From an uncultured Bacteroidaceae bacterium (GTDB lineage Bacteria > Bacteroidota > Bacteroidia > Bacteroidales > Bacteroidaceae): a stretch of 64,000 nucleotides of DNA. This document shows, piece after piece, positions 44,612-46,431 of the stretch; positions within the stretch are counted from its first letter, which is position 1; the number at the start of each line of letters is the position of its first letter. Made by a program: the position numbers and the translations under genes. The stretch spans positions 1 to 64,000 of the forward strand of contig CAJONZ010000071.1 of assembly GCA_905236065.1 (NCBI GenBank), in the 5' to 3' direction. The notes under the pieces are model-generated. The model ran no database searches, was not told the origin of the DNA, and saw nothing but the letters and a program-made list of their open reading frames with translations.

Positions 44612-45493
44612 ATGAATCTTTTGTTGTTGTGTCTTTCAATAATTCTTATGGCATGTGAGGGTAATCCAATGCCGGAGGAAGAGAGTAATCTTGTGGTTGA
44701 AGGATGGATTGAAGACGGTGGATTCCCTGTTGTGTTGCTTACGAAAAGCATTCCTCTATCCAGTGATTATCAGGGGTTAGATAGCTTGAATCAGTATTTG
44801 GTGAGATGGGCAAAAGTCTCTGTGTCTGACGGAGACAGCACTGTCGTTCTTACAGGCATGTACCAAAAGGACTGTTACCCACCTTATATCTATACCACAG
44901 GACGAATGCGTGGCAAAGCGGGCAAAACTTATAGCCTGACCATTGAGTATGGTGATTACAGAGCTACAGCTTCCACTAAAATTCCCATTAGTGTACCTTT
45001 GGACTCGGTTGTGGCTACTCCTATTGCAGAATCGGACACACTTTTCTTGGTTGATGCATATTTCATGGACTCGCCTGACACACATGATTACTACATACTA
45101 TTCACTAGTGTGAATACACGAAGTCGTCAGTCCCTTATCAGTTATATGGGCTACATAGATGACACACAGCTTTCAGGAATCCATGTCAAGTTGCCTGTGT
45201 ATCGGGGTAGTGTGTTGTCTGACGATGACTATATTCCGTATTTTACTAAAGGGGATATTGTGGAGGTGAAGTTAGCTCATGCGGATGCAACAGCATTCAA
45301 TTTTTGGAATGATGTGCAGAATTCTGTATCTTTCTCCACCAATATGTATATGCCAGTGATGACCAATGTGCGTACAAATATAACGGGTGGTATTGGCTAT
45401 TGGTTAGGTTACGGGGTCTCTCGTAAATACGTTGTGGTAGGTGAGAGTGATTTGTTTTTTCCTTTCTTCAATATGGAATCGACTACAAGATAA
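44612..45493 (+). CDS. DUF4249-family lipoprotein (ORF open from 44561)
   Basis: LLLLCLSIILMACEGNPMPEEESNLVVEGWIEDGGFPVVLLTKS...; adjacency to a TonB receptor. Confidence 0.78.
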   Translation: MNLLLLCLSIILMACEGNPMPEEESNLVVEGWIEDGGFPVVLLTKSIPLSSDYQGLDSLNQYLVRWAKVSVSDGDSTVVLTGMYQKDCYPPYIYTTGRMRGKAGKTYSLTIEYGDYRATASTKIPISVPLDSVVATPIAESDTLFLVDAYFMDSPDTHDYYILFTSVNTRSRQSLISYMGYIDDTQLSGIHVKLPVYRGSVLSDDDYIPYFTKGDIVEVKLAHADATAFNFWNDVQNSVSFSTNMYMPVMTNVRTNITGGIGYWLGYGVSRKYVVVGESDLFFPFFNMESTTR

Positions 45494-45557
45494 TGCTTAA
45501 TATTTTGAACTGTGGTGAATTTCTCAAACAGGTCTTAGTTGCCCTCAAAGAGATTTC

Positions 45558-45603
45558 AGCAGATATTGTTTTTTTCTTGTTTTTTCAATGAAAAATATCT
45601 GCT
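45558..45603. terminator. Possible terminator hairpin of the 41-45.5 kb operon
   Basis: AGCAGATATT ... AATATCTGCT perfect 10-bp arms around a T-rich loop. Confidence 0.45.
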
Positions 45604-45671
45604 ATTTTGGGAAAATTTATTTCTGCTTAATAAAAACTTCCGAAAACATAGCGATTTTGTGTAAAAAGCTG

Positions 45672-45679
45672 TACCTTTG
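45672..45679 (+). promoter_or_regulatory. Putative -7 box TACCTTTG driving the structured RNA candidate
   Basis: TAnnTTTG match at the 5' edge of the structured region. Confidence 0.55.
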
Positions 45680-45685
45680 CCTCCG

Positions 45686-46005
45686 ACTCGATTAGCCCGA
45701 AAGGGAAAAAGGGTCATGACATATTGTTTATAGGACGTTTACGAACGTTATCTTCGACATCCGAATCTCGCAAGTTCAGCAATGTCTCAGAAGAAACGCA
45801 ACGGGGCGTCCGCGTTGGGTGTATTATACCCTGCCTGTTTTATTATATATGTACGTGCGATACGTATGTGTATATATAAATGGTGGCTTTCTGTATAATA
45901 TCTCACGACGTGGGCTAACTCGAGTTGCTTATCCTGAGACAAGGCAATGCGAGAGCCTGGATGTGGGATAAGCGAGAAAAGCAGAGAGACTCCCACGTCT
46001 TTTTT
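45686..46005 (+). ncRNA. Structured non-coding RNA candidate ending in an intrinsic terminator (family unassigned)
   Basis: Hairpins: CCC-GAAA-GGG (45696-45705), ACGTT-TACG-AACGT (45735-45748), AACGC/GCGTT (45795-45816), GGGTGT/ATACCC (45817-45831), 16-bp hairpin 45844-45878 with four G.U pairs, nested GACGTGGG/CCCACGTC and GCTTATCC/GGATAAGC (45907-45999), then T6. Confidence 0.7.
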
Positions 46006-46076
46006 GTTGGCAAATATCTTTTTTGCATATTCTCCGCATGTTCTTCCGTCCGAATACATTGCATGTCGTCTCAATG

Positions 46077-46283
46077 ATTAGCATCGGTGAACAAATAAAG
46101 GCAGAGCTCAATTCGCAGGAGCGGGGAGTTTCTTGGTTTGCGAACAAATTAGGTTGTTCGCGCATGGCTGTTTACCGAATTTTTGAGAAAAACAGCATTG
46201 ACACGGCTGTCTTATATAGAATTTGCAAAATTCTTAACCGTAACTTTTTCAATGACTTATCAAACGATTTGGAAAATGTGTAA
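46077..46283 (+). CDS. Small helix-turn-helix protein
   Basis: MISIGEQIKAELNSQERGVSWFANKLGCSRMAVYRIFEKNSIDTAVLYRICKILNRNFFNDLS: HTH-like. Confidence 0.7.
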   Translation: MSIGEQIKAELNSQERGVSWFANKLGCSRMAVYRIFEKNSIDTAVLYRICKILNRNFFNDLSNDLENV

Positions 46284-46431
46284 CATGTTTGTTACAGAGA
46301 TGTAACATCTGTGTATCACCGTTTCCTTGTGGGAGTTGTTATTTATTGTGAACTTTGCACCCGAAAAGCTAAACAAATGCAAATTTTATTGCAAGTTTTT
46401 ATTATTAACAACTTAAAAAAACGTGAAAATT

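Follow-up and report, generated by a model that had tools for sequence, protein, structure and literature searches.

The closest described systems are the terminator-type riboswitches, in which a structured core with long-range loop-loop pairing lies behind its own promoter, and a strand common to the antiterminator and the terminator is followed by a U-run and a gene on the same strand. A single genome can contain many of them, preceding unrelated genes, and the c-di-GMP-I/GEMM riboswitch is an example of a multi-copy riboswitch preceding diverse genes. Leader-peptide and ribosomal-protein attenuators follow the same antiterminator/terminator logic. 6S RNA (RF00013, RF01685), a stable RNA of some hundreds of nucleotides that forms a long rod with a central bubble, is encoded at a single gene-independent locus, and Bacteroidales-1 RNA (RF01693) is a structured RNA of Bacteroidales. 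The 6S RNA of Bacteroides is known as a transcript of its own (PMC7366714).

Here we describe an RNA of about 320 nt encoded in the window, by which we mean the whole stretch of 64,000 nucleotides of an uncultured Bacteroidaceae bacterium that was analysed. The element resembles the terminator-type riboswitches in all features named above, but it carries no known aptamer sequence (no Rfam match), is much longer (about 297 nt at the median from the promoter to the terminator strand a′ defined below) and has an extra conserved pairing beyond the U-run. Unlike in leader-peptide and ribosomal-protein attenuators, inner ORFs are not enriched and the downstream genes do not form one pathway. Unlike 6S RNA, the element is a multi-copy leader with pseudoknots and a gene-proximal terminator. 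Judging by its relatives, the interval is one copy of a large, elaborately folded RNA family of gut and rumen Bacteroidales. It probably serves the HTH gene at 46074 as its 5′ leader and belongs to an order-wide, orphan family of riboswitch-like attenuator leaders.

The locus and the distribution of the family

The RNA lies between a DUF4249 gene, which ends at 45493, and a small HTH gene, which begins 68 nt past the RNA 3′ end. It has a promoter at its 5′ side and a terminator-like stem with a U-run at its 3′ end. A long hairpin (AGCAGATATT...AAATATCTGCT) at 45555-45606, between the DUF4249 gene and the promoter, gives a weak chance match to Rfam and probably terminates the upstream operon. 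The following features were read in the sequence of the locus:

45672-45679, + strand: promoter box TACCTTTG, a Bacteroidetes-type -7 element; RNA 5′ end expected at about 45684-45686
45696, + strand: motif CCCGAAAGGG
45735-45748, + strand: motif ACGTTTACGAACGT
45795-45816, + strand: motif AACGC...GCGTT
45817-45831, + strand: motif GGGTGTATTATACCC
45844-45878, + strand: AU-rich hairpin with four G.U pairs
45942 with 45955, + strand: AGGC with GCCT
46000-46005, + strand: U-run T6 (TTTTTT)
46074-46283, + strand: gene of a small Cro/C1-like HTH protein (69 aa), the proposed target of the leader

The preliminary description had called the interval a structured RNA of the + strand with a promoter-like box, a terminator-like end and no convincing ORF, and this stood in every part. 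All of its motifs are present on the + strand, including the four G.U pairs of the AU-rich hairpin, and this strand folds to -117.3 kcal/mol compared to -90.9 kcal/mol for dinucleotide shuffles (z -4.66; 0 of 100 shuffles equal). No supported ORF was found within the interval. The promoter and the 3′ end recur across the family, as detailed below. The Rfam search and the comparison of homologues for covariation that had been suggested were both carried out.

Rfam 15 gave no match in the whole window at the gathering score and nothing credible around the element at E<=5. Likewise, nothing was found on the element in 15 homologous loci at gathering and relaxed thresholds. Neither 6S model (RF00013, RF01685) matched the window or these 15 loci. 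In 13 related genomes RF00013 gave nothing above its cut-off, while the controls did match; the genome search with RF01685 gave no match anywhere, controls included, and is uninformative alone. Bacteroidales-1 was also rejected, as its model does not match the element; it matches another locus of the same genome (G000:C16:9224-9441). No such RNA is described in the searched text of open PMC papers, including PMC2864571, PMC11109978 and PMC7366714. We call the family undescribed in this sense, as neither Rfam 15 nor the open papers searched contain it.

With a blastn-type search, 30 of 101 related genomes proved to contain homologues, some of them in several copies. For the 3′ domain, a covariance model (R1) was built on 29 sequences (98.1% of cells paired; two-sided changes in 22 cells vs 2.9 in shuffles), and it matched in 77 of 290 good Bacteroidales genomes. 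Its E-values are rough, and this prevalence is a lower bound because the large searches used strict filters by which weak copies are lost. The RNA is present in 40 of the 45 genomes of the window's genus, with a maximum of 16 copies in one genome, and in none of the 199 good Bacteroidota genomes outside Bacteroidales in a phylum sample. Most of the genomes sampled are MAGs, the window's own included (88% complete). When named genomes were scanned with a pattern, at least 119 matches resulted, nearly all labelled as Bacteroidales or uncultured bacteria and one as a Clostridia MAG; among the carriers are the cultured Xylanibacter rarus (strain 109), Phocaeicola massiliensis (DSM 17679) and Bacteroides bouchesdurhonensis. 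A search of phages, plasmids and viral contigs gave no match, and an origin from a phage or plasmid was rejected on this ground.

A long-range fold and the two partners of strand a

The helices were spotted on the first ~45 copies, and the majority of the copies in which they were tested were retrieved later. In the swap test, a strand was scored with its own partner and with the equivalent stretch of other copies. The elements of the fold in the window's copy are as follows:

45686-45695, + strand: P0 5′ strand ACTCGATTAG, with which the RNA begins; pairs with 45915-45925
45695-45698 with 45711-45714, + strand: GCCC/GGGT hairpin (RNAalifold, 34 copies)
45733-45739 with 45805-45811, + strand: GGACGTT with GGCGTCC, enclosing P4 (RNAalifold, two-sided changes)
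45751-45755 with 45790-45794, + strand: helix P4, 94.7% paired in 34 copies
45757-45762, + strand: K2, ACATCC, hypervariable; pairs with K2′ at 45959-45964
45766-45772, + strand: K1, TCTCGCA; pairs with K1′ at 45948-45954
45808-45829, + strand: T5 and P6 5′ strand, the proposed antiterminator arm; 45809-45816 pairs with a, the remainder with 45893-45906
45839-45880, + strand: variable tip of the P6 arm, including the AU-rich hairpin (45844-45878); sequence not conserved
45893-45906, + strand: P6 3′ strand, conserved TATAATATCTCAC
45907-45914, + strand: switching strand a, GACGTGGG, nearly invariant; common to the T5 arm and the terminator
45915-45925, + strand: P0 3′ strand CTAACTCGAGT, just after strand a (swap test)
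45927-45934 with 45966-45973, + strand: P2 hairpin, GCTTATCC with GGATAAGC; its loop holds K1′ and K2′
45985-45994, + strand: strand b, AGAGACTCCC; its partner in most copies is b′ (GGGAGTC-like), beyond the U-run
45992-46005, + strand: a′, CCCACGTC, the terminator-like 3′ strand (45992-45999), followed by TTTTTT

A nine-helix pseudoknotted model had 91.7% of its cells paired in 34 full-length sequences and contained 145 two-sided changes, compared to 43.8 in shuffles and no more than 30 in slid controls. RNAalifold adds the GGACGTT/AACGTCC and GCCC/GGGT helices to this model. The core that is conserved across the copies consists of K1, P2, P4 and the GGACGTT domain, with P2 being 100% paired (5 two-sided pairs). 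In the swap test, K2, a hypervariable helix of 7-10 bp adjoining K1, scored 19.17 with its own partner and 9.21 ± 0.18 with swapped ones (n=156; 96% vs 15% over threshold). The corresponding values are 18.8 and 16.1 ± 0.15 for K1, 15.13 and 12.67 ± 0.23 for P0/P0′ (0 of 100 swaps as high) and 15.57 and 12.41 ± 0.17 for b/b′; control stretches in the P0 and b/b′ tests gave nothing comparable. The K1 loop variants covary as well (TCTCGCA/TGCGAGA, CTTCGCA/TGCGAAG, TCTGGTAAAT/GTTTACCAGA and CCTGGAAA/TTTCCAGG).

The fold is thus dominated by long-range and pseudoknotted helices, and here the preliminary description, which had seen the fold in local hairpins, did not hold. The CCC-GAAA-GGG hairpin, the 'UNCG' hairpin and GGGTGTATTATACCC all compete with better supported longer-range helices. 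As a local hairpin, GGGTGTATTATACCC is paired in only 80% and is better explained by its membership in the P6 arm. The AU-rich hairpin is the species-specific tip of this conserved arm.

The window's copy has a complete core, and no convincing b′ was found downstream of its U-run. Downstream b′ is likewise absent in two other copies (L018 and L022) and in the closest HTH-linked relatives (L260-L263). Past the U-run of L014, L016, L049, L080, L135 and L160, which also have an HTH-like gene downstream, a b′-like complement is present. In related copies, the functional unit does not end at the U-run, as the preliminary description had it, but runs as far as the start codon of the next gene. A second, more divergent copy in the window's genome (G000:C65:558-652, locus L077:558-652) precedes a 300-aa ORF without a Pfam match and has a GATACCC/GGGTATC pairing that fits b/b′.

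In the comparative data, strand a has two competing partners. With a′, 99.1% of the cells are paired, and the duplex scores -13.96 with its own partner vs -12.10 ± 0.12 when swapped. The other partner, T5 (45809-45816), is the base of the long P6 arm, the apex of which is the AU-rich hairpin. The whole T5/P6 arm duplex reaches -24.4 kcal/mol with its own strands compared to -18.1 ± 0.32 kcal/mol with swapped ones (n=132). In swap tests on non-overlapping windows of this arm, strand a alone (9 nt) scored -10.68 against its own T5 and -9.84 ± 0.09 against swapped ones, and the 22 nt preceding a scored -13.40 and -9.56 ± 0.21, respectively. In several copies in which a differs, T5 and a′ often change along with it. 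For example, L070 has GGCGTGAGC as a, GCTCACGTC as T5 and CTCACGCC as a′, and L126 has AGCGTGAGT, GCTCACGCT and CTCACGCT at the same places, with matched changes in both partners. The best double changes of a:T5 come from the more distant copies, and the alignment of 34 close relatives contains one-sided changes only. Compared to a:a′, the a:T5 pairing is less secure, and its covariation is weaker than that of the other helices. Attenuators are usually recognised by such a strand, which stays complementary to two exclusive partners, one of them a terminator. Across the family, a promoter and a same-strand gene, a stem followed by a U-run and a strand with two exclusive, co-conserved partners were all found, as in an attenuator leader.

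Position relative to genes and the alternative readings

We anchored ~207 copies (167 non-redundant) on strand a. A TAnnTTTG promoter is found 150-420 nt upstream of it in 181 of 207 copies, compared to 23 of 179 in a control stretch. The 8 nt that follow a′ contain at least five T in 153 of 166 copies, compared to 6 of 160 in the control. The U-run is weaker in some copies (CTTTCGT), which could result in poor termination. The median distance between the promoter and a′ is 297 nt; in B. thetaiotaomicron, 5′ UTRs have a median length of 32 nt (PMC7366714). In 151 of 157 copies, the RNA shares its strand with the dominant downstream ORF, the start codon of which is typically located 54-80 nt past a′, and the upstream ORF has the same orientation in 84 cases and the opposite one in 49. 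Such a position directly upstream of a same-strand gene points to a cis-regulatory leader, and does not support the free-standing intergenic ncRNA of the preliminary description. A leader-peptide attenuator was rejected, as inner ATG ORFs of at least 10 codons are no commoner in the leaders than in shuffled leaders (0.81 vs 0.90).

The RNA could instead act in trans, as an sRNA or a scaffold RNA (6S-like included) that has its 3′ end at the terminator at 46005, the HTH gene being a mere neighbour that is expressed independently. A good terminator stem and U-run with no downstream b′ are seen in the window's copy, in L260-L263, L018 and L022, so that the RNA could end constitutively at the U-run here, and its stability and size would suit an abundant ncRNA. 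However, the same-strand gene at its typical spacing, the large number of copies within a genome, preceding unrelated genes, and the conservation of the HTH linkage itself argue against this explanation, and we consider it unlikely. 6S RNA proper, which had been put forward as an alternative, was rejected, for the element has up to 16 copies per genome, lies before many different genes, has a pseudoknotted fold and matches no 6S model.

To an action of the leader on translation or mRNA stability we assign a similarly small probability. Here the pseudoknotted core and b/b′ would work beside the start codon, and the U-run would be structural or single-stranded. The b/b′ pairing, which is strongly supported, needs an RNA that continues beyond the U-run. 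In the distant HTH-linked copies L272:1423-1500 and L274:1399-1479, the start codon is at or nearly at the U-run, the ATG of L272 directly abutting it (CCACGCTTTTTTTATGCATATCGG), and termination and translation start would overlap there. Nevertheless, a U-run right after a′ is almost universal, and a also remains complementary to a strand further upstream that competes with the terminator strand, a property for which a device acting on translation alone would have no need.

A mobile or selfish structured element (a retroelement, an attC-like cassette or an inserted repeat) is very improbable, for although its copies are many, dispersed and divergent within genomes, they point in the direction of the gene that follows, have a promoter at their 5′ end, are absent from phages, plasmids and viral contigs, recur before the same types of genes and display conserved pairing with G.U pairs, a sign of selection at the RNA level.

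The proposed switch and its targets

As an attenuator leader, the RNA would work as follows. RNA polymerase would start just past TACCTTTG, and P0 at the 5′ end, the GGACGTT domain and the P4, K1 and K2 strands with the P2 loop would fold into a compact two-domain core. Strand a, upon emerging, would pair with the T5/P6 arm, and the terminator would be blocked (ON). Binding of a ligand or a protein would put the core into its other state and free a, which would then pair with CCCACGTC beside the U-run, causing a stop at about 46005 and leaving an RNA of ~320 nt (OFF). Comparison of the copies shows the family itself, its promoter, its helices, both competing partners of a, the U-run and the leader position; we infer that a:a′ would act as a terminator in vivo and that the OFF state would be the one favoured by the signal. 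In most copies, the window's not being among them, b/b′ beyond the U-run would be a further layer, possible only in read-through RNA, that perhaps locks the ON form or shapes access to the start codon. A pairing at this place is hard to reconcile with a pure termination switch, and part of the control may be translational.

The 69-aa protein encoded downstream of the window's copy has a weak match to HTH_3 (E 0.0018, below the Pfam cut-off). The RNA is located directly upstream at 15 of 25 loci that encode relatives of this protein, far above chance for a handful of copies per genome, which makes the RNA-HTH pair a conserved unit. The HTH protein would be a target of the leader at the least, and it may also be a regulator associated with it. 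Between its gene and that of an outer-membrane beta-barrel protein (46435), an inverted repeat with a third half-site, TGTAACATGTTTGTTACAGAGATGTAACAT, is present at 46281-46312 and could be an operator for the HTH protein.

The other downstream genes are diverse. Among 133 downstream proteins scanned against Pfam, NCBIfam and PADLOC, 18 match LRR_5 (BspA-type) and seven match TIGR04117 (Cys-Xaa-Xaa-Xaa radical SAM targets); the others are spread over lipoproteins, small unknown proteins, methyltransferases, SNF2 helicases and further types. Neither a single pathway nor a common defence theme was found in this set, and the diversity is too great to suggest a ligand. Small Cys-rich peptides of ~90-150 aa with C..CC repeats and an N-terminal SRR(D/E)FFKKAAK motif, which resembles a Tat signal, are a recurrent target; their ORFs follow L009, L153, L154, L158, L176, L177, L178, L193, L203 and L217.

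By way of analogy, the multiple copies and diverse targets recall second-messenger riboswitches. It is conceivable, at somewhat less than even chance, that the family is a new class of riboswitches, one of the largest known, which responds to a global signal (e.g. a second messenger or an envelope signal) and controls a scattered Bacteroidales regulon. Such a regulon would comprise BspA-type leucine-rich-repeat surface proteins, Cys-rich radical-SAM target peptides, lipoproteins, restriction or defence genes and small HTH regulators, and a three-way exchange of strands (T5 : a : a′ plus b:b′) would be built into the switch.

If the attenuator-leader reading is right, dominant bacteria of the gut and the rumen possess a multi-copy RNA switch missing from Rfam 15. 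Its size, its long-range hypervariable helix and its pairing across a terminator would be of structural interest, and what the RNA senses becomes a concrete, testable question. Furthermore, the family would offer a handle on how Bacteroidales control their surface adhesin-like and other accessory genes.
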